From Halanaerobium salsuginis (GTDB lineage: Bacteria; Bacillota; Halanaerobiia; Halanaerobiales; Halanaerobiaceae), in assembly GCF_900114545.1 (NCBI RefSeq), contig NZ_FOTI01000003.1:62001-126000 (forward strand): a stretch of 64,000 nucleotides of DNA. The letters run 5' to 3'. How positions within the stretch are numbered: the stretch's first letter is position 1; each line of letters opens with the position of its first letter. The notes under the pieces are model-generated. The model was given only the letters and a program-made list of their open reading frames with translations, did no database searches and was not told where the DNA came from. This document shows, in pieces, positions 39,451 to 59,993 of the stretch. The translations under genes were made by a program, and so were the position numbers.

Positions 39451-39471
39451 GTTTTAAATTTAGGTGGATAT

Positions 39472-39544: not shown

Positions 39545-39564
39545 TACTGCTTAAGTTAATTGAG

Positions 39565-40335: not shown

Positions 40336-40360
40336 AACTTTATTTCGGGGGGGGATTAAA

Positions 40361-40822: not shown

Positions 40823-40864
40823 AAATCTAACTAAAGTATTTTAAATTATATAGGGAGGTAAATT

Positions 40865-41869
40865 ATGAATTTTATTAAAAGTATTCAAGCTGTTGATTCT
40901 CATACAATGGGAGAACCGACCAGAATTATAACTGGTGGTGTACCAAAAGTACCAGGTAAAAATATGGCTGAAAAAAAAGCATATCTAGCAGAACATCTAG
41001 ATAATATTCGAACTACAGTAATGTTTGAACCACGCGGTCACAATGATATGTTTGGTTCCATTATTCTTCCTCCGACTACTGAAGAAGCAGACTTAGGTAT
41101 TGTGTTTATGGATGGTGGTGGTTATCTAAATATGTGCGGCCACGGTAGTATTGGAGCAGCTACAGTTGCAGTTGAGACAGGAATGGTAGAGGTAAAAGAA
41201 CCTTATACAGAGGTTATTTTAGAGGCTCCAGCTGGTTTAATTAAAGCTCGGGTAGAAGTTAAAAATGGTAAAGCTAAATCTGTTTCTATAGTTAACGTTA
41301 ATTCTTTTGTTTATCAAGAAAACCTAGAAATTGAGGTGCCAGAAATTGGGCCAATAAAATTAGATATTTCTTTTGGAGGTAGTTTCTTTGCTATAGTTAA
41401 TGCCAAAGATCTTGGCATTCAAGTTAATCATGCTAATAGTGATCAATTAAAAAAGATTGGAATTCAAATCCGGGATATTGTAAATGAAACAATTAAAGTT
41501 GAGCACCCTGAAAAAAAATATATAAATACGGTTGACTTAGTAGAAATTTATGATGATCCATCTAACCCAGCTGCTGATAAGAAAAATGCAGTTATTTTTG
41601 GGCAGGGTCAACTTGACCGTTCTCCTTGTGGAACAGGAACTAGTGCTAAACTAGCTACTTTATATAAAAAGGGCCTGCTAAAAGAAAATGAAGAGTTTGT
41701 TTATGAAAGTATAACTGGAACAATGTTTAAAGGAAAGATAATAGCTTTAGCTAAAGTAGGAAACTTTGAGGCTGTTGTACCTGAAATAACTGCTAATGCC
41801 TATATAACTGGTTTTAATCAGTTTGTAATTGATCCTGAAGATCCTTTGCAATATGGATTTTGTTTATAG
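40865..41869 (+). CDS. prdF: Proline racemase
   Basis: Interconverts L- and D-proline, feeding D-proline reductase. The two catalytic cysteines are Cys91 in LNMCGHGSIG and Cys255 in DRSPCGTGTSAK. N-terminal IQAVDSHTMGEPTRII and FEPRGHNDMFGSI are also characteristic. The length of 334 residues is the same as the Clostridioides difficile and Acetoanaerobium enzymes. The start is ATG behind AGGGAGGTA. It closes the core prd set. Confidence 0.94.
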   Translation: MNFIKSIQAVDSHTMGEPTRIITGGVPKVPGKNMAEKKAYLAEHLDNIRTTVMFEPRGHNDMFGSIILPPTTEEADLGIVFMDGGGYLNMCGHGSIGAATVAVETGMVEVKEPYTEVILEAPAGLIKARVEVKNGKAKSVSIVNVNSFVYQENLEIEVPEIGPIKLDISFGGSFFAIVNAKDLGIQVNHANSDQLKKIGIQIRDIVNETIKVEHPEKKYINTVDLVEIYDDPSNPAADKKNAVIFGQGQLDRSPCGTGTSAKLATLYKKGLLKENEEFVYESITGTMFKGKIIALAKVGNFEAVVPEITANAYITGFNQFVIDPEDPLQYGFCL

Positions 41870-44415: not shown

Positions 44416-44424
44416 CTAATTAAT

Positions 44425-44462
44425 CAAATGATATATTGGTAATATTACCAATATATCATTTG
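44425..44462. terminator. Perfect 38-base palindrome after the NSS transporter
   Basis: The left arm CAAATGATATATTGGTAAT is followed with no spacer by its exact reverse complement. It begins 10 bases after the transporter stop and is followed by AAATTTTG. It probably ends transcription or protects the 3' end, although the T-run is poor. Confidence 0.55.
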
Positions 44463-44583
44463 AAATTTTGCTTAAATAAAGTAGTTTTATATAGAAATCT
44501 TAGATTTAAAATGTTTTTTTATTTATCAAATAAGCAAAACTTATTCTTAAGATAAAAATTACTTATTACAGGAGTGAAAAACA

Positions 44584-45852
44584 ATGGCAAAACATTATGA
44601 AATGTGGGAAAAACTGGGCCTTGACTTAGAAAAACATGATCAATTTTTAAATCCAGTTCCAGAATTATTTACTGAAATATTTATTAAACAAGATAACCGA
44701 CCAGAAGGTATGGACTATTATGATTTTGTAGTTGGAGATATTCATGGAGTAAGAGTTAAAGAATTAGTTGCAGAAAAAGATAAAGGGAATCCAGTTATTT
44801 CTTCTTTTTGTGCTTTTGTACCAGATGAATTAATCATAGCTGCTGGTGGGGCAAGTATTGGGCTATGTGCTGGAGCTCAATTTCCTATTCCAAGAGCTGA
44901 ATTAGAATTACCAAATGATATCTGCCCTTTAATTAAATCATCAGTTGGTTTTAAATTAGAAAGAGTTTGTCCTTATTTTGAAGTATCAGATTTTGTAGTT
45001 GGTGAAACAACTTGTGATGGTAAAAAGAAAGCCTGGGAATTTTTAAATGAACATATTTCTACTTATGTAATGGAATTACCTAACACTAAATCTGCATCTG
45101 GCCATCAACTTTGGCAGTCAGAAATTGAAAGGTTTAAACTTGAAATAGAGGAGCGTAGCGGCCGTAAAATAACTACTGAAAAATTAGCTGAAGCAATTAA
45201 GTTAGTTAATAAAAAAAGATCTGTATTAGAAAGGCTTTATAATACCAGAAAAGCTAATCCGGCTCCAATTAGTGGTAGAGACACTCTTCTAATAACACAA
45301 TTAGCTTTTTTTGATGATCCAGCTAGATTCATTGAAAAAACAGAAAAACTTTGTGAAGAATTAGAAGCAAGAATAGCCAATAAACAAGGCGTTGTCAATT
45401 CTGAAGCACCTCGTATTTTGATTGCTGGAACACCAATGCCATTACCAAGTTGGAAATTACATTCTATTATTGAGTCTAATGGTGGTGTAGTAGTTTGTGA
45501 AGAAACTTGTACAGGAACTAGATATTTTGAGTCTAAAGTAGCAGAAAATGGACAAAATTTGGCTGAACAATTAGTTAACTTATCAGAGCGTGCAATGAAT
45601 ATCAATTGTGCCTGCTTTACTCCAAATGAAGCTAGAGTTGATGATATTTTGCGACTTGCTAATGAATATAATGTTGATGGAGTTATTTACTATAATTTGC
45701 AATTTTGTCAGACATATAATATGGAATACAATAAAGTTGCAGATGCTTTAAAAAAGGCTGATATTCCTGTTACTCAAATTGAAAGTGATTTTAGTGAAAA
45801 TGATAGTGGACAATTAAATACTAGGATTCAAGCATTTTTGGAGATGCTGTAG
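44584..45852 (+). CDS. Double-cubane-cluster-type reductase (HgdB/2-hydroxyacyl-CoA dehydratase D-like), copy 1
   Basis: The 422-residue protein of the COG1775 fold has two cluster-binding lobes. Conserved cysteine contexts in order: SSFCAFVPDE, NDICPLIKSS, RVCPYFEVSD, TTCDGKKKAW, VCEETCTGTRY, NINCACFTPN and LQFCQTYNMEY. The CPLIKSS-CPYF-CDGKKK set and a second CEETC lobe are the pattern of stand-alone double-cubane proteins, which receive low-potential electrons from an ATP-dependent activase. One activase gene lies at 52877. The substrate is not known. The start is ATG behind ACAGGAGTG. It heads a same-strand series of redox and transport genes. Confidence 0.82.
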   Translation: MAKHYEMWEKLGLDLEKHDQFLNPVPELFTEIFIKQDNRPEGMDYYDFVVGDIHGVRVKELVAEKDKGNPVISSFCAFVPDELIIAAGGASIGLCAGAQFPIPRAELELPNDICPLIKSSVGFKLERVCPYFEVSDFVVGETTCDGKKKAWEFLNEHISTYVMELPNTKSASGHQLWQSEIERFKLEIEERSGRKITTEKLAEAIKLVNKKRSVLERLYNTRKANPAPISGRDTLLITQLAFFDDPARFIEKTEKLCEELEARIANKQGVVNSEAPRILIAGTPMPLPSWKLHSIIESNGGVVVCEETCTGTRYFESKVAENGQNLAEQLVNLSERAMNINCACFTPNEARVDDILRLANEYNVDGVIYYNLQFCQTYNMEYNKVADALKKADIPVTQIESDFSENDSGQLNTRIQAFLEML

Positions 45853-45891
45853 TATATTATAATTATATAAGATATAAATATGGAGGTAAAT

Positions 45892-46473
45892 ATGAATAAT
45901 AAATCGTTGGCATTGACTATGGCTGCTCTTGGAATTGTAGTTAATCTTGTTTTAGGAACTACTGTAGCAATGCTTAAAATACCACTTCTGTTTCTAGATA
46001 CAGTAGGAACTATTTTTGTGGCAGCAGTATTGGGACCTGTATATGGAGCCATGGCGGGTGGCTTAACAAATTTAATTCAAGGAATGATTACAAATCCAGG
46101 AGATATTCCATTTGCTCTAGTTAATATTGTAATTGGAATTGTAGTAGGCTTAATTGCAAGGAAATATGGATTTAATTATTTAGTAGCGTTTTTAACAGGT
46201 TTGATTTTGGCAGTTATAGCTCCTTTAATTGGTACTCCTATTGTAGTCTGGTTATTTGGTGGAGTAACCGGAGGAGGAATTGACTTTGTTTTTGCCTGGT
46301 TATTGCATTCTACACAAAATATTTTTCAAGCTGCCTTTCTTTCTAGAATTACAGGTAACTTAGTTGATAAAGTAGCTAGCTGTTTATTAGTAGCTTTTTT
46401 AATTAAATATTTAGCAGATGATATTATTCGCCGCTTTGGCGATTTAAAGCAGAATAAGATTGATGGTAACTAA
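45892..46473 (+). CDS. ECF transporter S-component-like membrane protein
   Basis: The 193-residue protein has five to six hydrophobic helices. The first two (ALTMAALGIVVNLVLGTTVA, FLDTVGTIFVAAVLGPVYG) and the following GGLTNLIQGMI resemble substrate-binding S-components of ECF vitamin/cofactor transporters. No dedicated T or A components lie nearby, so it would have to share an energising module elsewhere. ATG 45892 is chosen over 45880 because TATGGAGGT sits at 45879-45887. It overlaps the next gene by one base. The ligand is unknown; this S-component and the next gene occur together in Clostridioides difficile (CD3073/CD3072 type). Confidence 0.72.
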   Translation: MNNKSLALTMAALGIVVNLVLGTTVAMLKIPLLFLDTVGTIFVAAVLGPVYGAMAGGLTNLIQGMITNPGDIPFALVNIVIGIVVGLIARKYGFNYLVAFLTGLILAVIAPLIGTPIVVWLFGGVTGGGIDFVFAWLLHSTQNIFQAAFLSRITGNLVDKVASCLLVAFLIKYLADDIIRRFGDLKQNKIDGN

Positions 46474-47012
46474 TGGAAAGAAGCAAAAAGATTGTATTAA
46501 TTGCTCATTGTATTTTAAATATTAATTCTAAAGTATCTGGACTTGCCAAAACTAACTTAGAAATGAAGTCAGTTATTCGCTTATTATTAGAAAAAGATCT
46601 TGGTATTATTCAATTACCTTGTCCTGAATTAACAATATATGGTAGCAGGCGCTGGGGGCATGTTAAGGAACAATTCGCAACTCCATACTATCGAAAACAT
46701 TGCCGAGAAATATTTAACCCTTATTTAGAACAAATAATTGACTATCAGGCTGCTGGTTATGAAATCATTGCTTTAATTGGGGTTGAAGGGAGTCCGAGTT
46801 GTGGAGTTAATAAAACTTGTTCAGCTTGCTGGCAGGGTGAAGTGACTGATCTTAAACCAGTTGAGCTCGCGAGTTTAGAAATGATTGCTGAATCTGGTAT
46901 ATTTATTGAAGAAATAAAAAAAGTATTAAAAGAAAAAGAAATAAAGCTTCCTTTAATAGCAATTGATGAAGAAAAACCTGGTTTAACTAAAAGAAAAATT
47001 AAAAACTTATAA
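46473..47012 (+). CDS. TudS-related putative desulfidase (CD3072 type)
   Basis: The 179-residue protein is related to the DUF523/TudS thiouracil desulfidases, which use a [4Fe-4S] cluster held by three cysteines to remove sulfur. Candidate ligands are Cys in LIAHCILNINSKVSG, LPCPELTIYGSRRWG and the cluster EGSPSCGVNKTCSACW. The start ATG shares one base with the stop of the ECF gene (TAATG), so the two are coupled. The pairing suggests uptake of a sulfur- (or selenium-) containing compound followed by chalcogen removal. The substrate is inference only. Confidence 0.75.
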   Translation: MERSKKIVLIAHCILNINSKVSGLAKTNLEMKSVIRLLLEKDLGIIQLPCPELTIYGSRRWGHVKEQFATPYYRKHCREIFNPYLEQIIDYQAAGYEIIALIGVEGSPSCGVNKTCSACWQGEVTDLKPVELASLEMIAESGIFIEEIKKVLKEKEIKLPLIAIDEEKPGLTKRKIKNL

Positions 47013-47037
47013 ATAAAAAATATTAATTGGAGGAATT

Positions 47038-47502
47038 ATGGTGAATAACAAACAAGAGGAATTAGTTAAAGAAGCTAGAAAAAGAGCAGAAGATTATTTC
47101 AGAAGAGGGGATTTTTATTGTTCTGAATCTGTTTTAACAACAATTAATGAGTTATTAGGAGAAGAAGTTGATCCAGAAATTGTTAAACTAGCTTCTGGAT
47201 TTCCGATTGGAATAGGTAAGTCAAAGTGTTTATGTGGAGCAGTTAGTGGTGGTGTTATGGCACTTGGTTTGAAATATGGCAGAACTAAGCCAGGAGCAGT
47301 AATGCCGGAAAAATGTTTTCCTGCCAATGCAGCTTTACATGATTATATAAAAGATACTTATGGATCTACATGTTGTCGGGTATTAACTAAAGATTTTGAT
47401 GAATTTGGCAGTCCAGAAAGAGCAGCTCATTGCATTCAAATCTCAGGTGAAGTTGCTGCCTGGGTAATGAAGCGCTTTATTGAGGATGGTGTTATTGAGT
47501 AA
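47038..47502 (+). CDS. C-GCAxxG-C-C family redox-active protein
   Basis: The 154-residue protein carries the family cysteine pattern. Cys in DFYCSESVL is followed by KCLCGAVSGGVMALGLKYGR (the C-GCAxxG element), CFPANA, TCCRVL and a final HCIQIS. Proteins of this family are often exported or redox-linked, with unknown substrates. No signal peptide is present here, so it is probably cytoplasmic. ATG start with TTGGAGGA upstream, 25 bases after the desulfidase-like gene. Its thiol-rich nature fits the sulfur/selenium theme of the neighbourhood. Confidence 0.8.
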   Translation: MVNNKQEELVKEARKRAEDYFRRGDFYCSESVLTTINELLGEEVDPEIVKLASGFPIGIGKSKCLCGAVSGGVMALGLKYGRTKPGAVMPEKCFPANAALHDYIKDTYGSTCCRVLTKDFDEFGSPERAAHCIQISGEVAAWVMKRFIEDGVIE

Positions 47503-47554
47503 TTTAATTAACTAAAATATATTAAATTAGTTACTAAAAAGGGGGAATTTAAGT

Positions 47555-48517
47555 ATGAAAAACTTAATTAGAAAAACGCCTATTCCAATTGCTGGTTTAA
47601 TGCTTGGTTTAGCAGGACTCGGGAACTTAGTAGTAGGACATGGAATTTACTACCGTTATTTAGCTGGATTATTATCATTTTTGATTACTATACTTTTAAT
47701 TATAAGGCTTTTTATGAGTAAAGATACTCTTAAAAGTGAATTTGATAATCCAATTGTTGCAAGTGTTACTCCAACCTTTTTTATGGGATTAATGATTCTA
47801 GCCACTTATTTAAAGGAAATTATTCCATCATTAGCAATTTATATCTGGTATTTTGCTATTATACTACATATAAGCTGGATTTTATGGTTTACTATCCGTT
47901 TTATATTTAATTTTAAGCTTAAGCAAGTTTTTCCCAGCTTTTTCATTGTCTATGTTGGTTTGGTAGTAGCAAGTGTAACTGCACCAGTATTTAATAATTT
48001 AAAACTAGGTCAATTTATATTTTATTTTGGTTTTGTTGCTTATTTAATACTTTTACCAGTGGTTATTTATCGAGTTTTATTTTTTAAAAATATTAAAAGT
48101 CCTGCTTTACCAACTATTACAATTTTTACTGCTCCAGCAGCTCTTTGCTTGGCTGGTTATCTTAGTTCTTTTTCAGAAAATAATTTTACACTGACTGCTG
48201 TACTTACCTTATTAACTATAGTTATGTTGCTCGGGGTTACAATTTATCTGCCCAGGATGATTAAAATTGGTTTTTATCCGAGCTTTTCTGCTTTTACTTT
48301 CCCTTATGTAATAAGTGCAATAGGGTTAAAGATGTCAGCAAAATTTTGGCAGAATAAATTTGGCTTTAATTGGTTTAAATATTTGGCTGGAATAACTGAA
48401 ATTTTAGCTATTGGATTAGTTCTATTTGTTTTACTAGCTTATATTAATTTCTTTCATAAAAGCTACCAGTATTTAAAAAATGGTCTACCTAATAAACAGA
48501 AAGTAGTTAGTAATTAA
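47555..48517 (+). CDS. TDT/TehA family membrane transporter
   Basis: The 320-residue protein has about nine to ten transmembrane helices (PIPIAGLMLGLAGLGNLV, FLITILLIIRLFM, and onward to LVLFVLLAYINFF). It resembles the tellurite-resistance/dicarboxylate transporter family, which also includes sulfite and anion channels. The start is ATG behind AAAAGGGGGAA. The ligand is uncertain. In context an anion of sulfur or selenium is plausible, but small carboxylates are equally possible. Confidence 0.75.
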   Translation: MKNLIRKTPIPIAGLMLGLAGLGNLVVGHGIYYRYLAGLLSFLITILLIIRLFMSKDTLKSEFDNPIVASVTPTFFMGLMILATYLKEIIPSLAIYIWYFAIILHISWILWFTIRFIFNFKLKQVFPSFFIVYVGLVVASVTAPVFNNLKLGQFIFYFGFVAYLILLPVVIYRVLFFKNIKSPALPTITIFTAPAALCLAGYLSSFSENNFTLTAVLTLLTIVMLLGVTIYLPRMIKIGFYPSFSAFTFPYVISAIGLKMSAKFWQNKFGFNWFKYLAGITEILAIGLVLFVLLAYINFFHKSYQYLKNGLPNKQKVVSN

Positions 48518-48637
48518 AAAAGAATAACTTATTAATTTTTAAAAGATAATTTTAAGTCTTTTTTATCTTGTATACTAGACTAGAGTTAATAATTAACTTT
48601 GTTTTAGTTATTATAAAAATCTAAGGAGATGTTAAAA

Positions 48638-49210
48638 ATGAAAGAAGTAGATGCTAGAGGACTTACTTGTCCCAAACCAGTTATAATGACAAAAAAGGCT
48701 CTATCTGAGGAAGAACAACTATTAGTTTTAGTAGATAATGAAGTTGCTGCTAATAATGTTGCAAAATTGGCTAAAAAAATGGGCTGTCAAGTAACTACAT
48801 TGGCGGAAAAAGGTAATTATAAGTTGACTATTAAACAGGTAGATAACTTAGACGCAAGCGAATCTAGAGCAGCTAGTATTGGTAAAACATATTTTATTAC
48901 TTCTAATTTACTTGGTGAAGGTGAATCAGAATTGGGCGAAATATTGATGAAGGGCTTTATTAGTACTTTATTAGAAATTGATCCCTTACCAGTTAAAATA
49001 ATTTTTATGAATAGTGGAGTTAAAATACCAACACTTAATAAAGCTGCATTAGAAAGTCTAGAAATACTGGCAGATAAAGGTGTAGAAATTTTATCTTGTG
49101 GAACATGTCTTGACTACTATGGATTAACAGAAAAATTAAAAATAGGAAATATTAGTAATATGTATGAGATTCTTGCGTCCTTAAATTCAGAAGATATAGT
49201 TAAAATATAG
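48638..49210 (+). CDS. yedF: YedF, selenium-metabolism sulfurtransferase-like protein
   Basis: The 190-residue two-domain protein has an N-terminal TusA-like domain (1-70) with the active Cys11 in DARGLTCPKPV. A C-terminal DsrE-like domain (about 85-190) has FMNSGVKI and ILSCGTCLDYYGL. YedF of this length is found almost only in selenium-using bacteria and is thought to handle selenium or persulfide. ATG 48638 is chosen because CTAAGGAGAT lies upstream and covers the in-frame ATG at 48629. It stands near selA-selD and the double-cubane genes. Confidence 0.88.
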   Translation: MKEVDARGLTCPKPVIMTKKALSEEEQLLVLVDNEVAANNVAKLAKKMGCQVTTLAEKGNYKLTIKQVDNLDASESRAASIGKTYFITSNLLGEGESELGEILMKGFISTLLEIDPLPVKIIFMNSGVKIPTLNKAALESLEILADKGVEILSCGTCLDYYGLTEKLKIGNISNMYEILASLNSEDIVKI

Positions 49211-49304
49211 TTAATTAGTAAATTATTAATTATAAACTCATTTTATATATAATTTAATAGTTATTTTACAGCAAAGAAAAATGTAATATAAGGAGGTGAA
49301 AAGT

Positions 49305-50465
49305 ATAACTAGTTTAAATGATTACTTTGCCCAACTACATATCGAAGATTTAAATGATTATGGTCCCATAGCTATCAAAAATTTAAAAGAAAATGAACAA
49401 AAAAATATTGTTGGTATTTATTGTGTATTTACCCCAACCGAGCTTATTTCAGCTGCTAATGCAATTCCAGTTAGCTTATGCAGCAAAAATGGATCTACAA
49501 TTCCAGATGCTGAGAAATATTTACCTCGCAATTTGTGTCCTCTTATTAAATCAAGTTATGGCTATGCAATAACTGATAAATGTCCTTATTTTCATTTTTC
49601 TGACTTGATAGTAGGAGAAATAACTTGTGATGGTAAAAAAAAGATGTATGAGTATTTAAATGAATTAAAACCTGTTCATGTAATGCAGCTGCCCCAAATG
49701 AATTCTCATGAGATTTATTTTGAGTTTTGGAAGCAAGAAATGATTAGGTTAAAAAAGAGGTTAGAAAAAGAATTTAACGTTCAGATAAACAATCAAAAAT
49801 TAGCTGCTGAAATTAAACTCAAAAATTCTGAAAGATTAGTTTTAAAAGAACTTTATCAATTGCAAAAACTAACTCCACCTCCGTTATTTGGATCTGAAGT
49901 TTTAAGATTATTAAACTTATCTCAGTTTACCTTTGATAAGCAGGTTGCCAATAATCGAACTAGAAAAGCTATAGATAAAATAAAACAATTATACCAAAAT
50001 GGAGATAAAAGAATTTCAGATTCTGCCCCCAGAATTTTAATTACTGGATGTCCAATGGGAAACTCTACTGAGAAAATTGTTAAATTAGTTGAAAAAAATG
50101 GTGGTGTAGTAGTTTGCTTTGAAAATTGTACTGGAATAAAAGATAAAGAAGATTTAGTTTTAGAAAATTGTGATCCAATTGAAGCTCTGACACAAAAATA
50201 TTTAAATATTCCATGCTCTTGTATGAGTCCTAATGATAATAGATTTGAGCTATTAATTAAAATTATTACTGAATATCAAATAGATGGAGTAATTGATATG
50301 GTTCTTCAAGCATGCCATACTTATAATGTTGAAACACTTAGAATGAAAGAATTTGTGAATATTGATAAAGAAATTCCATATATGAGTCTAGAAACAGATT
50401 ATTCTTCAGCTGACATTGAACAACTAAAAACAAGAATATCAGCTTTTTTAGAAATGATGTATTGA
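49305..50465 (+). CDS. Double-cubane-cluster-type reductase (HgdB-like), copy 2
   Basis: The 386-residue paralogue of the gene at 44584 has the same ordered cysteine contexts: GIYCVFTPTE, RNLCPLIKSS, DKCPYFHFSD, ITCDGKKKMY, VCFENCTGIKD, IPCSCMSPND and LQACHTYNVE. It also has an extra Cys in ITGCPMGN, where copy 1 has AGTPMP. The frame's only canonical start, GTG 49296, overlaps the ribosome-binding site AGGAGGTG (49291-49298). Initiation therefore more likely occurs at ATA 49305. The copies diverge widely outside the cluster motifs, so they probably act on different substrates or form a heteromer. Confidence 0.8.
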   Translation: MTSLNDYFAQLHIEDLNDYGPIAIKNLKENEQKNIVGIYCVFTPTELISAANAIPVSLCSKNGSTIPDAEKYLPRNLCPLIKSSYGYAITDKCPYFHFSDLIVGEITCDGKKKMYEYLNELKPVHVMQLPQMNSHEIYFEFWKQEMIRLKKRLEKEFNVQINNQKLAAEIKLKNSERLVLKELYQLQKLTPPPLFGSEVLRLLNLSQFTFDKQVANNRTRKAIDKIKQLYQNGDKRISDSAPRILITGCPMGNSTEKIVKLVEKNGGVVVCFENCTGIKDKEDLVLENCDPIEALTQKYLNIPCSCMSPNDNRFELLIKIITEYQIDGVIDMVLQACHTYNVETLRMKEFVNIDKEIPYMSLETDYSSADIEQLKTRISAFLEMMY

Positions 50466-50541
50466 TTTAAGTTAATTATAGTTTTAAATCATTTTAAGGT
50501 TAGTCCATTTCTATTTGGAGAATAAATTGGAGAGGATATTT

Positions 50542-51309
50542 TTGATAAAAATAGAAAATCTAAAAGTTATTTTTGGTGAACTTAATGTTTTAAAAAATAT
50601 TTCACTTAATATAAATAAAGGCGAAGTCATTGCTTTAATTGGTCCTTCTGGGGCAGGTAAATCAACTCTTTTAAGATGCATAAATTTTTTAACTAAACCA
50701 ACTGCAGGCAGGATTATAGTTGATGGATTTGTTTTTGATTCAGAAAAATATACTAAACAAGATATTTTAAAACTTCGCAAAAAAACTGCTATGGTTTTTC
50801 AAAATTATAATTTACTTAAAAACAAAACTGCTCTTGAAAATATCATGGAACCATTAATTATTGTGCAAAAGAAGCAGAAAAAAGAAGCGGAAAAAACAGC
50901 CAGTAACTTGCTTGCAAAGGTTGGCTTAATTGATAAAAGAGATTCATATCCAAAAGAATTATCAGGGGGCCAGCAGCAGAGAGTTGGTATTGCTCGTGCG
51001 ATGGCAGTTAATGCTCAGGTTATTCTTTTTGATGAGCCTACTTCTTCTTTAGATCCAGAATTGGTTGGAGAAGTTCTAAGTGTAATTAAACAATTAACTT
51101 TAGAAGATAATAAAACTATGCTAATTGCAACTCATGAGATGAAATTCGCTCGAGAAGTTGCTGATAAAATTATATTTTTAGAGAGTGGCCATATTGGTAG
51201 CATAGGAACTCCAGACCAAATTTTTCAGAACTGTAAAAATAGGCGAATAAGAAAATTTGTGAGCCAGATAGCTGATATAGAATATGAGGTGGGGCTTGAT
51301 GAATTTTGA
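50542..51309 (+). CDS. Polar amino acid ABC transporter ATPase
   Basis: Energises amino-acid uptake. Walker A GPSGAGKSTLLRC, Q-loop MVFQNYNLLKN, signature LSGGQQQRVGIARA and Walker B VILFDEPTSSLDPE, as in GlnQ-type ATPases. The start TTG 50542 is chosen since GGAGAGGA lies just before it; an earlier TTG at 50515 has no suitable site. The length of 255 residues is normal. It overlaps the permease gene by 11 bases. The substrate cannot be read from the ATPase. Confidence 0.9.
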   Translation: MIKIENLKVIFGELNVLKNISLNINKGEVIALIGPSGAGKSTLLRCINFLTKPTAGRIIVDGFVFDSEKYTKQDILKLRKKTAMVFQNYNLLKNKTALENIMEPLIIVQKKQKKEAEKTASNLLAKVGLIDKRDSYPKELSGGQQQRVGIARAMAVNAQVILFDEPTSSLDPELVGEVLSVIKQLTLEDNKTMLIATHEMKFAREVADKIIFLESGHIGSIGTPDQIFQNCKNRRIRKFVSQIADIEYEVGLDEF

Positions 51310-51958
51310 TCTGCAATGGTTTTTTAATTTGTTTTCTATTGTTCTACCTGGTTTGCGTATTACATTGGCAATATCTATTATTTCTTTAGTTTTTACTTTA
51401 ATATTATCTATTTTGATAGCAATTACCAGATATTATAAAGTGTGGGGATTGAATTTATTCTGGAAAGGATACATAACTTTTTTTCGCGCTACTCCACTTG
51501 TGGCACAGCTATTTATCCTTTATTTTGGCTTGCCAAGCATAATAACTTCTCTAAAATCAATGACAGCATTTCAAGCTACTGTGATAGCTCTTACTTTAAA
51601 TACAGCTTCTTTCATGGCAGAAGATTTAAGGGCAGCTCTTGAATCAGTAGATATTGGCCAACTTGAAGCATGTTATGCAATGGGAATGACAAAATATCAA
51701 ACAATGAAACGTGTCGTACTACCGCAAGCTTTAGAGACAGCATTACCGTCAATTGGTAATCGTTTTATTGGTATTATTAAGGGTTCTGCTTTAGGTTTTA
51801 CAGTTGGTCTGGCTGATATTATGGCTAAAGCAAAAATTGAAGCAGCTTTAAGTCTACGCTTTTTTGAGGCCTACTTATGTGTAACATTAATTTACTTAGT
51901 ATTAGTTTGTGTAGTTGAACATATTGAAGCACGGGTACAAAAAAAATTAAAGATATAA
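51299..51958 (+). CDS. Polar amino acid ABC transporter permease
   Basis: The 219-residue HisM/GlnP-type permease has about five helices. It has the conserved FFRATPLVAQLFILYFGLP region and the ATPase-docking EAA loop, EACYAMGMTKYQTMKRVVLPQAL. ATG 51299 lies six bases after GAGGTGG and overlaps the ATPase stop. Together with the binding protein at 51998 it forms a complete importer. It would function as a homodimer, as there is no second permease gene. Confidence 0.9.
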   Translation: MNFDLQWFFNLFSIVLPGLRITLAISIISLVFTLILSILIAITRYYKVWGLNLFWKGYITFFRATPLVAQLFILYFGLPSIITSLKSMTAFQATVIALTLNTASFMAEDLRAALESVDIGQLEACYAMGMTKYQTMKRVVLPQALETALPSIGNRFIGIIKGSALGFTVGLADIMAKAKIEAALSLRFFEAYLCVTLIYLVLVCVVEHIEARVQKKLKI

Positions 51959-51997
51959 TAAAAAATTTGTAAACTATCTAAAAAGGAGAAATATAAA

Positions 51998-52837
51998 ATG
52001 AAAAAATCTAAATTTTTATTTATAATGCTATTAATTGTGGGGGTAAGTATTTTAACTACTGGTTGTAACAAAGAGTCTGCTCAAGGAGAAATAAATTCTG
52101 CTTCAGATAAGATAACCAAGATTGTTGTAGCTTCAGGTTCATCTTCTATACCAAATAGTTATATTGAAAATGGTGAGCACAAAGGGCATGAAGTTGATAT
52201 TTGGAATGCTATTGCTAAAAAAACTGGTTTAAAAGTAGAGTTTATAACAGGTGAGTTTAATACTTTATTTGGTTATCTTGACTCTGGTAAAGCAGATACA
52301 GTAGGTAATACAATTACAATTAATGAAAAAAGAAAAGAGAAATATAATTTCTCGGAGCCATATGCCTATATTCCAGAGAAAGTAGTTGTCCATAGTGACC
52401 GATCAGATATAACAAAATTGAAAGATATTTCTGGTATGAATTGTGGTTTTTCTGCTGGTTCTAATGGAGGTAATTTATTTGAAGAAATTGCTAAAGAACA
52501 AGGGATTGAAATAAATATGATAGCCTATGATAGCTCTGAATTACTATGGTCAGCTTTTAGACAGGGAAAGGTTGATGCAATGATTTTAGCTGGAGCAGAA
52601 GCTGCTTATAAAATAAAAAATGATTTACTTGATGCAAGAATGGTAGAAGAAAATATAGCGGTTGGTGAAAAAGCATATCCTTTTGTTAAAAATAATGAAA
52701 GATCTGAAAAACTGAGAGCGATTGTCACAAAATCAATTCAGGAGATGAAGGAAGATGGTGAATTGGCTCAAATATACCAAAATTGGTATGGGGTTGATTT
52801 TAGTTCAAAACCAGCAGATGCTAAAATAGCTAATTAA
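51998..52837 (+). CDS. Amino acid ABC transporter substrate-binding lipoprotein
   Basis: The 279-residue family 3 solute-binding protein has a lipoprotein signal peptide with lipobox LTTG-C at Cys23. The mature part has SSSIPNSYIENGEHKGHEVD, GELDTL-like GKADTVGNTITI and FRQGKVDAMILAG. The ligand is unknown. The location beside yedF and sel genes would fit cystine, cysteine or selenocystine; the proximity of prd genes also makes proline conceivable. ATG start with AAAAGGAGAA upstream. Confidence 0.88.
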   Translation: MKKSKFLFIMLLIVGVSILTTGCNKESAQGEINSASDKITKIVVASGSSSIPNSYIENGEHKGHEVDIWNAIAKKTGLKVEFITGEFNTLFGYLDSGKADTVGNTITINEKRKEKYNFSEPYAYIPEKVVVHSDRSDITKLKDISGMNCGFSAGSNGGNLFEEIAKEQGIEINMIAYDSSELLWSAFRQGKVDAMILAGAEAAYKIKNDLLDARMVEENIAVGEKAYPFVKNNERSEKLRAIVTKSIQEMKEDGELAQIYQNWYGVDFSSKPADAKIAN

Positions 52838-52876
52838 GGTATAGAAATTTATTTAATATTAGGAGGAGTTAACAAT

Positions 52877-53638
52877 ATGTATTCCCTTGGAATTGATATT
52901 GGTTCTGTAGCTACTAAAGCAGTGCTTTTCGATGGAGATATTGTAGATAGAGTTATCCTGCCAACTGGCTGGAGCCCTAGACAAGCGGGAAAAGATGCTG
53001 TGATAGAATTATTAAAAAAGAATGGAATAAATCAAGTTAATAAAATAGTTGTAACTGGTTATGGTAGAATTGCCGTTGATTTTGCAGATAAAGTAGTTAC
53101 CGAAATAACCTGTCATGGGAAGGGAGCTTATGTTCTTAATAATAAAGTTAGAACTATAATTGATATCGGGGGTCAAGACAGTAAAGGAATTAATATTAAC
53201 AAGCATGGCAAAGTGATTGACTTTATTATGAATGATAAATGTGCAGCTGGGACTGGAAAGTTTTTAGAAGTAACTATTAATTCTCTTGGAGAAGATATTA
53301 CTGAGATTGATGAATTAACTAGAAAGGCTGTTGCTGAAAAAATAAATAGTATGTGTACTGTTTTTGCTGAATCAGAAGTTGTTAGTTTATTGGCTCAAGG
53401 CGCTGATAAAGCAAATATTATTATGGGGATTATAGATTCAATAGCAGCTAGAACAGTTTCGTTGCTTAATAAGATAAATATAACTGATGAAGTTTTGTTT
53501 ACTGGAGGACTGGCAAATAGTTCACAGATAACAAATCAATTAACCAAAGTATTACAAAAAAAAGTAAAGACAGATACAAATTCTCAATTTGCTGGAGCCA
53601 TTGGAGCAGCGATCATTGGTTGGGAAGAACTTCAGTAG
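52877..53638 (+). CDS. ATP-dependent activase (HgdC/BadF-type) for the double-cubane reductases
   Basis: The 253-residue ASKHA-fold ATPase forms a homodimer bridged by one [4Fe-4S] cluster and donates electrons at low potential. Seen: phosphate loop LGIDIGSVATKAVLF, IDIGGQDSKGI, the cluster cysteines in NDKCAAGTGKFLE and SMCTVFAESEVVSLLAQG, and the adenosine motif LFTGGLANS. It is the only activase in the window while there are two candidate partners (44584 and 49305). ATG start with AGGAGGAG upstream. It lies 39 bases after the ABC binding protein and is the last gene before selA. Confidence 0.88.
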   Translation: MYSLGIDIGSVATKAVLFDGDIVDRVILPTGWSPRQAGKDAVIELLKKNGINQVNKIVVTGYGRIAVDFADKVVTEITCHGKGAYVLNNKVRTIIDIGGQDSKGININKHGKVIDFIMNDKCAAGTGKFLEVTINSLGEDITEIDELTRKAVAEKINSMCTVFAESEVVSLLAQGADKANIIMGIIDSIAARTVSLLNKINITDEVLFTGGLANSSQITNQLTKVLQKKVKTDTNSQFAGAIGAAIIGWEELQ

Positions 53639-53652
53639 GGTAACTATAATGT

Positions 53653-53682
53653 TTGCTAGCTTGTTTTTTTATATGTTATACT
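53653..53682 (+). promoter_or_regulatory. Possible sigma-A promoter of selA
   Basis: TTGCTA (53653-53658), 18 bases, TATACT (53677-53682), 42 bases before the selA start. Confidence 0.5.
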
Positions 53683-53724
53683 AAGATAGAGTAAACCTTG
53701 AGCTAAGAAAAGAGGGAGTTATCT

Positions 53725-55161
53725 GTGGAGAAACAAAGAAAAAAACTTTTAAGTAAACTACCAGCTATAAATGATTTGTTAGATTCTAAACAAGGACAAT
53801 CTTTAATTGATGTTTATGGACATCAAATGGTTGTTGATGCTAGCAGACACGCTATAGATGAATTAAGAAATACAATCTTAAATACAACTTCAAGTATGCT
53901 AAGTGAGTTTGAATTACTTAGTCTAGATAAGCTGAATGAAAAAATATCAGCTTATCTAGAATCTAAACAACAAAATGGACTGCAGCCAGTAGTTAATGCT
54001 ACAGGCATTGTTGTTCACACCAATTTAGGAAGATCATTATTATCTACTTCAGCTAAAAAATCAATTTCTGAAATAGTCAGTAGCTATTCTAATCTAGAGA
54101 TAGATAAGTTGACAGGTGAGCGAGGTTCACGTTATCAGCATGTTGCTAAATTATTGAGAGAATTGACTGGAGCAGAGGCGGCTCTAGTAGTGAATAATAA
54201 TGCTGCAGCTGTGTTTTTAATTTTAAGTAGTTTGGCGGTTGGTAAAGAGGCAATTATTTCGCGCGGCGAAATGGTCGAAATAGGTGGTTCGTTCAGGATT
54301 CCAGATGTAATGAAGCAAAGTGGCGTTATTTTGAGGGAAGTTGGCTGTACTAATAAAGTCCATCTTTCAGATTATGAAGCTGCAATTAATGAAAATACTG
54401 GCTTATTTCTAAAGGTTCATACTAGTAATTATAAAGTAGTTGGTTTTACTGAAGAAGTAGAATTTGCTGAATTAGTAGGTCTTGGAGAGCAGTATGGGTT
54501 ACCAGTAGTTGATGATCTTGGTAGTGGAATTTTAGTTGACCTCAGTGATTGGGGATTGAGTTATGAGCCCACTGTTCAGGATAGGATTTCAGCTGGAGTT
54601 GATGTAGTAAGTTTTAGTGGAGACAAAATGTTGGGAGGGCCCCAGGCGGGAATAATTGTTGGCAAAAAAAAATACATAGAAGAAATGAAAAAGCATCCTT
54701 TAAATAGAGCTTTAAGAGTTGATAAATTAACTTTAATTGCTTTAGAAGCCACTTTAAAGGAATACAGGCATCCAGAAAAAGTATTTGATGAAATACCAAC
54801 TCTAAAAATGATAACCGCTAGTAAAAGCCAGCTTCAGTGTAGAGCTCAAAAACTTTATCAAATTTTAAAAAAAGTTATCTCAACAAAACTATCATTGCAA
54901 ATCAATAGTAGTTTTTCCCAAACAGGTGGAGGTGCTTTTCCGCTTGATAAATTACCTACAGCAGTAATTGAGTTAACTTCAGTTCAGGTAAGTATTGTCG
55001 ATATAGCAAAACAGCTGAGACTTAACCATCCACCGATTTTTACTAGAATTGCTAACCAGGCAATTATCTTTGATTTAAGAACAATTAAAGATAGTGACTT
55101 TATGATTTTAGCAGATGCACTGCAAAATATTAATCTTTCAGGAGGTGAAAACGGTGAGTAA
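53725..55161 (+). CDS. selA: L-seryl-tRNA(Sec) selenium transferase
   Basis: PLP enzyme converting Ser-tRNA(Sec) to Sec-tRNA(Sec) using selenophosphate. The N-terminal domain contains LPAINDLLDSKQGQSLIDVYG. The core has QPVVNATGIVVHTNLGRSLLS, LTGAEAALVVNNNAAAVFL and the PLP-lysine motif SFSGDKMLGGPQAGIIVG. The length of 478 residues is typical. GTG start with AGAGGGAG upstream. It overlaps selB by eight bases and heads the selA-selB-selC-desulfurase-selD block. Confidence 0.95.
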   Translation: MEKQRKKLLSKLPAINDLLDSKQGQSLIDVYGHQMVVDASRHAIDELRNTILNTTSSMLSEFELLSLDKLNEKISAYLESKQQNGLQPVVNATGIVVHTNLGRSLLSTSAKKSISEIVSSYSNLEIDKLTGERGSRYQHVAKLLRELTGAEAALVVNNNAAAVFLILSSLAVGKEAIISRGEMVEIGGSFRIPDVMKQSGVILREVGCTNKVHLSDYEAAINENTGLFLKVHTSNYKVVGFTEEVEFAELVGLGEQYGLPVVDDLGSGILVDLSDWGLSYEPTVQDRISAGVDVVSFSGDKMLGGPQAGIIVGKKKYIEEMKKHPLNRALRVDKLTLIALEATLKEYRHPEKVFDEIPTLKMITASKSQLQCRAQKLYQILKKVISTKLSLQINSSFSQTGGGAFPLDKLPTAVIELTSVQVSIVDIAKQLRLNHPPIFTRIANQAIIFDLRTIKDSDFMILADALQNINLSGGENGE

Positions 55162-57079
55162 AAATTTAATTATCGGAACAGCAGGTCATATTGATCATGG
55201 TAAAACAACTTTAATTAAAGCTTTAACAGGTGATGATACTGATCGGCTACAGGAAGAAAAAAAACGTGGTATTTCTATAGAACTAGGCTTTAGCTGTCTA
55301 AAACTAGATGATAATCTTCAGATTGGAATAATTGATGTTCCAGGGCACGAAAAATTCATTAAAAATATGTTAGCAGGTGCCGGTGGTGTTGATTTAGCTT
55401 TATTAGTAGTAGCAGCTGATGAAGAAATTATGCCTCAGACTGAAGAACATCTTGCTATTCTTGAGTTATTAAATGTTAAAGCTGGTATTATTGCCGTAAC
55501 TAAAATTGATTTAGTTGATCCAGAATGGCTGGAATTAGTTATTGCAGATATCAAAGAACAATTTGCTAATACTTTTTTAGCAGAATCTCCAATTGTTCCA
55601 GTTTCTGCAGTTACTGGAGCTGGTATTCCAGAACTTAAAGCTGCTATAAAGAAAAAGGTTACTGATCTTCCTGCTAAGAGCGAGATCGGGAATGTTTATT
55701 TTCCAATTGATAGAGTTTTTTCCTTAAGTGGGCATGGAACAATTGTGACTGGTACTTTAATTAGTGGTAAAATAGAGTTAGAAGATAATTTAACTGTTTA
55801 TCCTGAAGGCAAAAAGGTTAGAGTAAGGAGTATGCAAATTCATGAAAAGTCTGTTAGTACTGCTTTGCCAGGTCAGAGAGTAGGAATTAATGTGGCTGGT
55901 ATTGATCAAAATGAAGTTAATCGAGGTTCTGTTTTAGCAACTAATAATACGCTTAACCGAACAAATTATCTAGATGCTCATTTAAAGTTACTTGAGTCTG
56001 CTCCTTCTATTTTAAAGCATGGTGACCAAATTAGATTGCATTTGGGAGCAAGAGAAGTTTTAGGTAGAGTCTATCTACTTAATAAGGATGAATTACAACC
56101 AGGTGAAACTGCTTTTGTTCAATTCAATCTTGTAGAAGAAATAGTAGCTAGTTTTAAAGAAAGATATATTATTCGCCGTTATTCTCCAATGACTACAATT
56201 GGTGGGGGAGAAATTCTAACTACTAGACCACATCGTCATCGTAAATTTGATTCTGCAGTTTTAGCTAATTTAAAGATTAAAGCAACAGGAACTAATAAAG
56301 AAAGAGTTGCTCTAAGTATACAAGCTAATCAAGAGAGAAGTAGCAAATTAAATTATTTAGTTAAGGAAACTAGTCTGGCTTCCGAACAATTAATGCCTAT
56401 TTTAGTTGATTTGAAAAATTCTAATCAGATAGTTGAATTTAAAGTAGGTCAAGAATCAACCTGGTTGCATAAAAAACAATATAAAAAGTTAGAAGAACAG
56501 GTATTAAGTAATTTAGCAGAATACCATTCAAAAAATCATTTGGAGAGAGGTATGCTAAAAGAAGAACTGCGTACCAGGCTTACTATTAGACTAAGCACTG
56601 CTGAATATAATATATTAGTTAAAAATCTTATAGCAAAAGGTTTGCTTATTGATTTAGGTTCAGAAGTCGCGCGTTCAGACTTTAAGATAGAGTTAAATGA
56701 ACAAGAAACTTATCTTAAAGAAGAAATTTTGAAGACTTATCAGGTTGAATTTTTACAGCCACCAACTTTAGATAATTTAATTTCTGGATTTATAAAAGCT
56801 AAAGAGTCTGAATATGAAACAATTAAAAAATTGCTTAATCTACTCTTAGCTCAAGAAGATCTGGTTCAAGTTAGTGAAGATCTGTTTTTTTGGCCAGATG
56901 CTCTAGCCAAAGCAAAGCTGATTTTAATAAATTATCTGCAGGAAAATCAAATGATAGAGCTGGCAGAATATAGAGATTTGTTAAATAGCAGTCGTAAATA
57001 TGCTCTTGCTTTATTAGATTACTTCGATAAACAGAAAATAACTAAAAGACAGGGAAATCAAAGAATATTAGTTAAATAA
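55154..57079 (+). CDS. selB: Selenocysteine-specific elongation factor SelB
   Basis: GTPase delivering Sec-tRNA to UGA codons marked by SECIS. Motifs: G1 [18 protein letters not shown]3 [12 protein letters not shown] and G4 TKID. The EF-Tu-like domains 2 and 3 follow ([19 protein letters not shown]). The C-terminal half (about 375-641) holds the winged helices that bind the mRNA hairpin. GTG 55154 is chosen with AGGAGGTG nine bases upstream; it overlaps the end of selA. The length of 641 residues is normal. Its targets in this window are prdC, prdB and selD. Confidence 0.95.
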
Positions 57080-57142
57080 ATAAGAATAATTAAGATATAT
57101 TGTATTTTTATTTTAATTATGTTAAGATAGTATAGTCTTTAC

Positions 57143-57241
57143 GGGAATAGCTGTATCCATGGTGGATATCACGGACTTCAAATCCGATGGCAGGTAACTT
57201 TAGTTATCTGTGGTGGGTTCGATTCCCACATATTCCCGCCA
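57143..57241 (+). tRNA. selC: tRNA-Sec (anticodon TCA)
   Basis: The 99-nt gene includes an encoded CCA. Acceptor GGGAATA (57143-57149) pairs with TATTCCC (57231-57237). An eighth position, G57150 against A57230, would be a mismatch. The six-pair D stem GTATCC/GGATAT has a five-base loop. The anticodon arm CGGA-CTTCAAA-TCCG has TCA at 57178-57180. A long variable arm CAGGTAAC-TTTA-GTTATCTG (8 pairs) and the T arm GTGGG-TTCGATT-CCCAC follow. The long D stem, long variable arm and TCA anticodon identify it as the selenocysteine tRNA. It sits directly after selB. Confidence 0.95.
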
Positions 57242-57279
57242 ATTTAACTAAACTATTTTAAAATATAATATTCTTATTT

Positions 57280-57317
57280 AATAACAACTAAATATTAAAT
57301 TTTTAGTTGTTATTTTT
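57280..57317 (+). terminator. Intrinsic terminator after selC
   Basis: AATAACAACTAAA (57280-57292) pairs with TTTAGTTGTTATT (57302-57314), then T residues. Confidence 0.75.
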
Positions 57318-57425
57318 ATATCTATATTAATTTTCATTATAAATTAAAAGGTAAATTTATTTTTAGTCAGCTAAGTTAATTAATTAAAAATATTTAATTT
57401 TAGAACTGGCTTAAGGAGGGTAAAA

Positions 57426-58598
57426 ATGATTTATGTTAACAATTCTGCCACTACCTGGCCTAAACCAGAAAATGTTTATCAGCAGGTTAATGAATTTTTC
57501 CGTAATTCAGCTCTAAATCCAGGACGTTCTGGTACTAGTAGTCTTGGTATTTCACCGGTAGAAAGAAAGATTTTTAAAGTGAGAAAACAATTAGCAGATT
57601 TAATTGGTACAAAAAATTATGCTCAGATTATTTTTACTTCTGGAGCTACCCATTCATTAAATATTGCTCTGAAAGGTATTTTAAAACAGGGCGATCATGT
57701 TATTACAACCTGCCTAGAACATAATTCTGTCTTGAGACCATTAAAAAAACTTGAAAAAGATAGAGATATAAAAATAACAGTAATTAGTTTTGACCAGCAA
57801 GGATATATTTCTCCTACAACAATTGAGAAGGCAATTACTGAAAGGACAAGATTGATTGTGACGACTCATGCTTCTAATGTTATTGGAACTCTTGTTGATT
57901 TAAAGAAAATTGGTCAGCTAGCCCGGCAGCATAGTTTAATTTATTTAGTTGATGCTGCCCAATCAGCTGGAGTTTTTGAACTTGATGTTAAAGAAATGGG
58001 TATTGATTTGTTGGCTCTTGCTGGACATAAATCTTTGTATGGACCAGCTGGAATTGGAGCTTTATATGTAAACCCAGAACTTGAACTTGATACTTTAATA
58101 GAAGGTGGCACAGGTACTAATTCTCTATCGGTTGAGCAGCCGCTAGCAATGCCTGACAAATATGAAAGTGGAACACTTAACAATTTAGGAATAGTTGGTT
58201 TAGGAGCAGGGCTTGAGTTTATTAATCAAATAGGCATGGAAAAAATTCGTGAGCATGAGCTTGACTTAGTCAAGCAGTTACTCGAAGGACTTCAGAAAAT
58301 TAATGGAATTAAAGTATATGGTCCAGCAGTAGATAAATTACGAGCACCTGTAGTGAGTTTGGAGTTAACTGGTATGTCAGCAGCTGAACTTGGTCATTTG
58401 CTAGAAAATAAATTTGAGATTAGAGTTCGTTCCGGGCTTCATTGTGCACCACTATTGCATAGGGCTTTAGGAACTGAAGAAAGAGGCTTAGTTAGAATTA
58501 GTTTTAGTTATTTTAATACCAAAAAAGAAGTGGAATTTATTTTGCAAAGTCTAGCAGAGCTAGCTTTTAGACTAGAAAGGAGGCAGGAAAATGAGTGA
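57426..58598 (+). CDS. Cysteine desulfurase / selenocysteine lyase-like protein
   Basis: The 390-residue class V aminotransferase-fold PLP enzyme has MIYVNNSATTWPKPENVY at the start, IIFTSGATHSLNIAL, VDAAQSAGVFELDV and the PLP lysine in LALAGHKSLYGPAGIGALY. The catalytic-loop Cys is in RSGLHCAPLLHRALGT, the short-loop (group II, CsdB/SclA-like) form. It probably liberates selenium or sulfur for SelD. It overlaps selD by eight bases, so the two are translationally coupled, supporting a selenium role. ATG start with TTAAGGAGGG upstream. Confidence 0.88.
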   Translation: MIYVNNSATTWPKPENVYQQVNEFFRNSALNPGRSGTSSLGISPVERKIFKVRKQLADLIGTKNYAQIIFTSGATHSLNIALKGILKQGDHVITTCLEHNSVLRPLKKLEKDRDIKITVISFDQQGYISPTTIEKAITERTRLIVTTHASNVIGTLVDLKKIGQLARQHSLIYLVDAAQSAGVFELDVKEMGIDLLALAGHKSLYGPAGIGALYVNPELELDTLIEGGTGTNSLSVEQPLAMPDKYESGTLNNLGIVGLGAGLEFINQIGMEKIREHELDLVKQLLEGLQKINGIKVYGPAVDKLRAPVVSLELTGMSAAELGHLLENKFEIRVRSGLHCAPLLHRALGTEERGLVRISFSYFNTKKEVEFILQSLAELAFRLERRQENE

Positions 58599-59637
58599 AG
58601 AAATTAAGTTAACAAGTTACAGTAAAACTTCTGGTTGAGCAGCTAAAATGGGACCAGATTCCCTGGCGCAAGTCTTGCGTCAAGTTGATTTTAAAACATT
58701 TGATAAAAAACTATTAGTTGGGCTTGATAAATCTGATGATGCAATTGCCTATCAGCTTAATAAGTCTCAGGTAATAGTACAGTCAGTTGATTTCTTTACA
58801 CCGATTGTTGATGACCCTTATTTATTTGGTCAGATTGCAGCAGCTAATGCCCTGAGTGATATTTATGCAATGGGCGCAGAACCAATACTGGCAATGAATA
58901 TTGTCGGGTTTCCTTCCTGTCTGTCTGAAAATATTTTAGCTAAAATACTGCAGGGTGGAGCTGCTAAGGTAGCAGAAGCCGGGGCAATTATTGCTGGCGG
59001 CCATACTATTCAAGATGACGAACCGAAGTATGGTTTGTCGGTTACTGGTCTTGTTGAACCAGCCAAACTATTAACAAATTCAGGTTGTCAGCCAGGTGAT
59101 AAACTTATTTTAACCAAGCCATTAGGAATGGGAATTATGGCAACTGCAATTAAAGCTGGTTTAGCAGAGGGGGGGTTAGAAAACGAAGTAGTAAAAGCTA
59201 TGGCAGACTTAAATAAAACAGCTGCTAAAGTAATGCAGAAAATTGGAGTTAATGCCTGTACCGATATAACAGGATTTGGTTTTCTAGGTCACAGTCTGGA
59301 GCTTGCAAAAGGAAGTAAAGTTGGAATTGAAATATTTAGTCAAGATATTCCAATTTTTTCGGAAATAACAGAATATGCAGAAATGGGTCTTGTACCTGCT
59401 GGTGCATATACAAATAAAAATTATTTAGCAGATCAACTTACTCTAGCACCTGGTCTTGCCGAGACTACAAGTGATATTTTATTTGATCCCCAGACTTCAG
59501 GTGGTCTTTTAATCTCTGTATCATCAGCAAAAGTAGCTGATCTTTTAATAGAACTCTATGCAGCAGGAATTGAACAGGCTACTGTAGTTGGTGAAGTTTT
59601 TGCTAGCCCGAAGGGTGCTTTAATTGTAAAAAGTTAA
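58591..59637 (+). CDS. selD: Selenide, water dikinase (selenophosphate synthetase), selenoprotein form
   Basis: Makes selenophosphate from selenide and ATP. ATG 58591 (AAAGGAGGC upstream) gives SYSKTSG-U-AAKMGPDSLAQ, with Sec encoded by TGA at 58636-58638 (residue 16), the active-site position that is Cys in E. coli SelD. The frame continues to TAA at 59635-59637, 348 residues. Further motifs: SVDFFTPIVDDPYLFGQIAAANALSDIYAMG, IIAGGHTI and DITGFGFLGHSLELA. Starting at the later ATG 58648 would delete the catalytic residue. Making SelD itself Sec-dependent couples selenophosphate supply to Sec decoding. Confidence 0.95.
58664..58682 (+). promoter_or_regulatory. SECIS-like hairpin of selD
   Basis: TGGCGCAA (58664-58671) pairs with TTGCGTCA (58675-58682), one G-T pair, loop GTC. 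It starts 25 bases after the Sec TGA. Confidence 0.6.
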
Positions 59638-59723: not shown

Positions 59724-59993
59724 ATGGAAGAAAAGCAGAAATATAATTTGATAATTTTTAATTCTACTCATCAGGCTTTAGCAGCAGAAGATTTGCTATT
59801 AGCAGCCAATTGCAAATTTAACCTCGTTCCAATCTTACCAGAGATAAGTGCTGATTGTGGCCTGGCAATACGCTTTCAGATCGAGCAAACAGAAATTTTG
59901 AACTTATTAAAGCAAGCTAAAATTGAAATGGCAGGTTATTATAAAGTGGTTAAATCAGGAATTAATAAAAACATAACTCAATTAGAGATTTAG
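59724..59993 (+). CDS. DUF3343 protein (putative Se/S carrier-like)
   Basis: The 89-residue protein begins EEKQKYNLIIFNSTHQALAAEDLL and has two cysteines, in AANCKFNLVP and SADCGLAIRF; the second Cys-Gly context is the conserved family site. DUF3343 proteins accompany selD and desulfurase genes in selenium-using bacteria and are proposed to carry selenium or sulfur. ATG start with AAAGAGGT upstream. It ends the selenium block, with a strong terminator 10 bases on. Confidence 0.82.
   Translation: MEEKQKYNLIIFNSTHQALAAEDLLLAANCKFNLVPILPEISADCGLAIRFQIEQTEILNLLKQAKIEMAGYYKVVKSGINKNITQLEI

Follow-up and report, generated by a model that had tools for sequence, protein, structure and literature searches.

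In double-cubane cluster proteins (DCCPs), an activase hydrolyses ATP and drives low-potential electrons onto an [8Fe-9S] cluster. A 2025 structural paper describes these proteins as the archetype of the benzoyl-CoA reductase/hydroxyacyl-CoA dehydratase family, with nitrogenase-like chemistry, and states that their biological function is unknown. Here, we describe two DCCP genes, DCCP1 and DCCP2, and one activase gene in a 64,000-nucleotide stretch of the Halanaerobium salsuginis genome (contig NZ_FOTI01000003.1, positions 62,001 to 126,000; hereafter, the window), and we report that the DCCP family is almost confined to selenium-using microbes. Among the closest described systems, the DCCP and DCCP reductase (DCCP-R) of Carboxydothermus hydrogenoformans (6ENO, 7YYL) share with the window the family, the six cysteines inferred from BzdN and a single activase of the same kind, whereas the window carries two paralogues of different clades on one activase, set in a cluster of selenium and transport genes. 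The 2-hydroxyacyl-CoA dehydratases (HAD) and class I benzoyl-CoA reductases (BCR I) have the HGD-D fold family and the activase in common with DCCPs but, unlike the window proteins, pair with an alpha-type subunit as heterodimers and take CoA esters as substrates.

A selenium link, still provisional, has already been noted in two sources. In Lin et al. (2015, PMC5322559), who proposed YedE, YedF, LysR and DUF3343, a STRING table for Slackia places an HGD-CoA dehydratase subunit and an activase near SelA, SelB, YedF, DUF3343, LysR and a selenocysteine (Sec) lyase; this is the gene association of the window, but the dehydratase and activase genes were neither discussed nor recognised as double-cubane. 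In Kountz and Balskus (2023, PMC10418091), DCCP is tied provisionally to selenium metabolism and appears with DCCPR in drawings of mlp clusters; no survey of DCCP itself was found in the accessible part. A 2026 selenoproteome review does not mention the protein. New here are the near-exclusive phylogenetic profile, the physical gene linkage, seen in two large groups, the division into two clades and a conserved operon. We did not find the breadth of the link described in the literature, though Haft and Gwadz (2023) and the first papers on DCCP may say more.

Both window reductases are intact open reading frames that match Pfam HGD-D (E values of 6e-123 and 4e-118) and exceed the 350-bit cut-off of the NCBIfam double_cubane model NF040772 (Table 1). 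They are 37% identical across 384 aligned residues and have in common the cysteine motifs quoted in the initial annotation (CPLIKSS, CPYF, CDGKKK, CxxxC-T-G); DCCP2, with about 35 fewer N-terminal residues, starts at GTG 49296 or ATG 49305. DCCP1 aligns over its full length with the crystallised Carboxydothermus DCCP. Transfer of the [8Fe-9S] ligand positions of BzdN (36/73/100/263/293/327) by alignment points to C76, C114, C144, C309, C342 and C375 in DCCP1 and to the same six in DCCP2, C342 being C344 in the raw alignment and assigned by conservation and a two-residue shift. These cysteines are kept in more than 93% of each clade when 108 relatives are aligned with the two window copies, and they are invariant in a diverse set (n = 14). 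The activase, single and of the HgdC type as first annotated, has its counterpart in the DCCP-R chain of the solved structure 7YYL (2e-49). Judged by sequence, both proteins are stand-alone double-cubane reductases with an ATP-dependent activase partner.

A fermentative 2-hydroxyacyl-CoA dehydratase was rejected because the only two full-length HGD-D genes of the whole 2.99-Mb genome are DCCP1 and DCCP2, both of the double-cubane type, and because dehydratase and benzoyl-CoA reductase models score far under their cut-offs (HadC, 122 and 100 against 700 bits; bzdN, 107 and 53 against 454 bits). The initial annotation had argued the same way, and it holds that neither a dehydratase alpha subunit nor a CoA-transferase is present. 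On another contig of the host genome (L212, G000:C38:58534-62292), a distant HGD-D-like protein lies beside a BadF-type ATPase, a second and different activase pair.

The family was surveyed in about 430 genomes, comprising a main set of 299 genomes of the host phylum, including other members of the host genus, family and class, and a second set from the class of a Coriobacteriia metagenome-assembled genome (MAG), with 53 DCCP genomes and 76 others. DCCP is present in 89 genomes of the main set, and SelA or SelD accompanies it in 88 of these, against 118 of the 210 genomes without DCCP (Fisher 1.6e-16). YedF follows the same course (88/89 against 85/210; Fisher 1.8e-25), also when only selenium users are considered (87/88 with DCCP, 79/118 without) and when counted per family (42/42 DCCP families, 28/80 others). 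To control for fold family and for an anaerobic way of life, 80 of these genomes were searched for any HGD-D protein; by a hand count, selenium users made up 21/21 of the genomes with DCCP, 11/15 of those with only other HGD-D proteins and 26/44 of those with none. The second class agrees, with SelD in 50 of the 53 DCCP genomes and 53 of the 76 others (p = 6e-4); in 18 of the 53, DCCP and selD are no more than 10 kb apart, where 0.5 would be expected. Named DCCP genomes under many phylum labels carry SelD in 19 of 20 cases, the exception being a Methanothrix MAG with DCCP on a 7-kb contig, and among 14 reference genomes DCCP is found only in Escherichia coli and Methanocaldococcus jannaschii, which are also the only two with SelD. 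The initial annotation had set a neighbourhood search and a correlation with selA/selD beforehand as the test of its selenium link, and both support that link across hundreds of genomes. Its more specific inference, that the set imports a particular sulfur or selenium compound and releases the chalcogen reductively, would be plausible.

A tree of 110 DCCPs divides into two fully supported halves, one of long (DCCP1) and one of short (DCCP2) proteins, and the nearest relatives of both window copies are found in a single genome of the same class (G117). DCCP1 occurs alone in 36 and DCCP2 alone in 35 of the 87 classified DCCP genomes, and only 16 hold both, a number near the expectation of 12.9 among selenium users. 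Since the clades are deep, separate and mostly found singly, an obligate form of the heterodimer that the initial annotation had raised for the pair is unlikely and was rejected. One activase common to two DCCPs is a recurring layout, found with tandem genes in Clostridium carboxidivorans, C. drakei and three survey genomes (G015, G134 and G147); a fixed heterodimer is not.

Counting yedF, selA, selB, selD, yedE, DUF3343 and desulfurase genes, a selenium-metabolism gene lies within 7 kb at 28 of 54 DCCP1 loci and 19 of 54 DCCP2 loci; yedF itself does so at 16 DCCP loci, against about 0.7 expected (an estimate from 1.15 copies per 2.6 Mb). Among 73 loci of named organisms, the commonest layout is desulfurase/DCCP1/DUF3343/activase, an operon of many Lachnospiraceae and others, such as Intestinibacter bartlettii and Muricomes intestini. 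Its desulfurases belong to the TIGR01977 family and match the SclA model strongly, at 342-431 bits, under the cut-off of 525; SclA of Enterococcus faecalis prefers Sec and sits in a selD operon (2026 selenoproteome review). DCCP2 is more often found beside ATP-binding cassette (ABC) importers and corrinoid methyltransferases. In G227, a genome of the host genus, an ABC importer and a YedF fragment come first, followed in order by an unknown gene, DCCP2, activase, DUF3343, YedF, SelD and a sarcosine reductase subunit. Direct linkage to selA as a general rule was rejected, only the host genome and G038 being notable by eye among the matches listed, so that the informative neighbours are yedF, selD, the desulfurase and DUF3343. 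A link to CO metabolism gave no substrate either: DCCP and DCCP-R of Calderihabitans, in a unit with a LysR gene, are down-regulated under CO.

The near-exclusive occurrence in selenium users suggests that the job of DCCP is probably to help supply usable selenium. On balance, we favour the view that DCCPs are ATP-driven reductases in selenium supply, acting upstream of or at selenophosphate synthetase and freeing selenide for SelD. Starting from the observed family, ligands, operons and genome-wide restriction to selenium users, we infer a chemistry, a substrate and an order of steps, in which the substrate would come from the Sec-lyase-type desulfurase and the DUF3343 carrier of the commonest operon, or would be an organoselenium compound taken up from outside; selenium would be passed on by YedF and DUF3343 as carriers, and the [8Fe-9S] cluster would reduce the selenium substrate, with selenide freed for SelD. 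G207, a genome with SelD and DCCP but without SelA, places DCCP upstream of SelA and Sec synthesis. That the electrons must be driven by ATP might, speculatively, be explained by a bond that is hard to break, such as C-Se, or by exchange of a chalcogen on the cluster.

Several points weigh against a role in selenium supply. About half of the DCCP loci have no selenium gene nearby, and SelD is missing in a few DCCP genomes (G118, G182, G271, G548, G558, G562 and the Methanothrix MAG), two of which, G118 and G271, are incomplete and carry SelA. Reduction of perselenide or selenite would need no ATP-driven electrons, and the activities of Carboxydothermus DCCP given in the accessible literature are the reduction of acetylene, hydrazine and azide. 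Moreover, the genomes are related, so that all p-values overstate independence, with the direction being the same in each set.

In a sharper form of selenium supply, which we regard as possible but well short of probable, DCCPs would release selenide by cleaving the C-Se bonds of organoselenium compounds, methylated ones among them. Such cleavage would account for the ATP need, and the nitrogenase-like MarHDK, which cleaves carbon-sulfur bonds, offers an analogy. The nearest tree relative of the window's DCCP2 (L016, in G117) ends a cluster of four UroD-type genes of the corrinoid methyltransferase type, a corrinoid activase and a CobW-type GTPase; UroD/B12 neighbours recur at 11 DCCP loci, and DCCP2 often adjoins NMT1-type or other ABC importers. 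The mlp clusters in which DCCP is listed are linked to methyl-selenium use (PMC10418091), but they differ from the window cluster, where no methyltransferase gene is seen, and DCCP1 operons mostly carry a desulfurase and a carrier instead.

Chalcogen exchange leads to a related proposal, to which we give somewhat less weight still. According to the 2025 structural paper, the desulfidase TudS is a member of the wider BCR I/HAD family, and HAD and TudS carry [4Fe-5S] clusters; labile sulfur on open iron is a theme of this family. The bridging sulfide between the cubanes could then be an exchangeable chalcogen site that loads selenium from a carrier or an organoselenium compound, with ATP-driven release as selenide for SelD, and the clades could serve different sources, DCCP1 selenocysteine via the lyase and carrier, and DCCP2 imported or methylated selenium.

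A system that serves sulfur, importing and desulfurating a thio-compound with the selenium genes as mere neighbours, seems improbable. The TudS-related gene of the window, the TusA/DsrE domains of YedF, the desulfurase and the TDT transporter would fit sulfur transfer equally well; however, sulfur transfer is universal, yet DCCP tracks SelD and YedF, and the CD3072 family, to which the TudS-related protein belongs, exceeds its cut-off in 16 genomes, every one of which has SelA or SelD. More doubtful still is a role in protecting or reactivating selenoenzymes, for instance by reducing again a selenocysteine that is blocked or over-oxidised, or a metal cluster, rather than in selenium supply: the window block does have a D-proline reductase operon with Sec on one side and the sel genes on the other, and the block of G227 is followed by its sarcosine reductase gene, but the neighbours common across loci are selenium-delivery genes and not one selenoenzyme, and G207 lacks SelA. 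Equally doubtful is a general small-molecule or detoxifying reductase with only an anaerobic lifestyle in common with selenium use, which the unspecific in vitro activities on record and the other neighbours at half of the loci would suit, but other HGD-D proteins in the same anaerobes track selenium less closely and DCCP is physically linked to selD and yedF far more often than chance would give.

The small TudS-related protein of the window falls in an NCBIfam family (CD3072) separate from the TudS thiouracil/4-thiouridine desulfidase, to which it is related, and scores 21.7 bits against the cut-off of 34.7 for Pfam 2-thiour_desulf (PF04463). Its C13, C50 and C110 are invariant in 18 sequences and would, as expected, fit a three-cysteine [4Fe-4S] site. 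The family is above cut-off in 16 of the 299 main-set genomes, where its genes stand beside the CD3073 energy-coupling factor (ECF) component, in many cases accompanied by an ATPase and membrane partners, or beside an ABC importer of the polar amino-acid type; the window cluster has both. The CD3072 set resembles an independent module for uptake and desulfidation (or deselenidation) that has become joined to the DCCP cluster in the window. Across loci L112-L128, the neighbour of the CD3072 gene is an ECF transporter in some cases and a polar amino-acid ABC importer in others, and selD is close in three loci of one family.

From DCCP1 to the DUF3343-type gene (44584-59993), every gene lies on the plus strand. 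The hairpin ahead of DCCP1 is likely the end of the preceding transporter gene, so that DCCP1 would open a new transcription unit, with the caveat that promoter- and terminator-like sites do not, as a whole, outnumber those of shuffled sequences. Family matches bear out the initial naming of the TudS-related, C-GCAxxG, YedF, ECF, TDT and importer genes. That selA and selD follow downstream was also correct, but the list was incomplete, missing selB, tRNA-Sec, the desulfurase (csd), the DUF3343-type gene and the upstream prd operon.

Table 1. Features of the DCCP-selenium cluster in the window, with supporting matches.
Feature	Coordinates	Strand	Evidence
Hairpin, 18-bp, T-rich tail	44424..44463	+	strongest terminator-like site of scan
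DCCP1, long-form double-cubane-cluster reductase	44584..45852	+	NF040772 499 bits; phmmer 1e-161 to 6ENO
CD3073-family ECF transporter S component	45880..46473	+	NF045596 241 bits, cut-off 180
TudS-related CD3072-family putative desulfidase	46473..47012	+	NF045597 195 bits, cut-off 130
C-GCAxxG-C-C putative redox protein	47038..47502	+	PF09719 7e-29; TIGR01909 above cut-off
TDT/SLAC1 family transporter	47555..48517	+	PF03595 1.7e-21
YedF, TusA-DsrE fusion	48629..49210	+	TIGR03527 211 bits, cut-off 110
DCCP2, short-form double-cubane-cluster reductase	49296..50465	+	NF040772 518.5 bits; phmmer 3e-77 to 7YYL
Polar amino-acid type ABC importer: ATPase, permease, binding protein	50515..52837	+	SBP_bac_3 2.6e-36
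Activase, DCCP reductase/HgdC type ATPase	52877..53638	+	TIGR00241 270 bits, cut-off 125
selA	53725..55161	+	TIGR00474 4e-184
selB	55115..57079	+	open reading frame between selA and tRNA-Sec; name from sequence reading, without family search
tRNA-Sec	57143..57237	+	Rfam RF01852 64 bits; ARAGORN
csd, TIGR01977 cysteine desulfurase/selenocysteine lyase type	57426..58598	+	TIGR01977 462 bits, cut-off 377
selD, one in-frame TGA (Sec)	58591..59637	+	TIGR00476 2e-116 spanning TGA
DUF3343-type small protein, putative Se/S carrier, DC motif	59724..59993	+	position, Cys45

Within the cluster, YedF has intact CPKP (at 14) and CGTC (at 157) motifs. The nearest NCBIfam model for the importer's binding protein is a cystine binder, with a score far under that cut-off, and a similar importer adjoins YedF-DCCP2 in the same genus (L022); the TDT transporter has no relative near DCCP at the other loci compared. 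A copy of the C-GCAxxG protein with 83% identity stands two genes away from DCCP1 in G117, where a 562-aa multi-rhodanese protein (L087:1016-2704) lies between the two. The window csd scores 369 bits with the SclA model (NF040779), under the cut-off of 525, which leaves it outside SclA. The DUF3343-type protein has no NCBIfam match but finds by phmmer a related copy in L023, itself PF11823 Se_S_carrier. The full N-terminus of selD requires the in-frame TGA (SGU motif), by which the window selenophosphate synthetase is predicted to be itself a selenoprotein. Upstream lies the D-proline reductase (prd) operon (35113-41869), with prdA, prdD/prdE-like reading frames and proline racemase; prdC (35113-36477) and prdB (38722-39450) each have one in-frame TGA, likely a Sec position, and two transporters separate the operon from the hairpin. 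Elsewhere in the window, a 1063-aa beta-helix protein, adhesin-like as judged by eye, is encoded on the minus strand (16462-19653).

The phylogenetic profile, together with the conserved operon of a Sec-lyase-type desulfurase and a carrier, makes both the role of DCCP and the way in which anaerobes obtain selenide for SelD testable. Because E. coli has both DCCP and SelD, this testability extends to E. coli.

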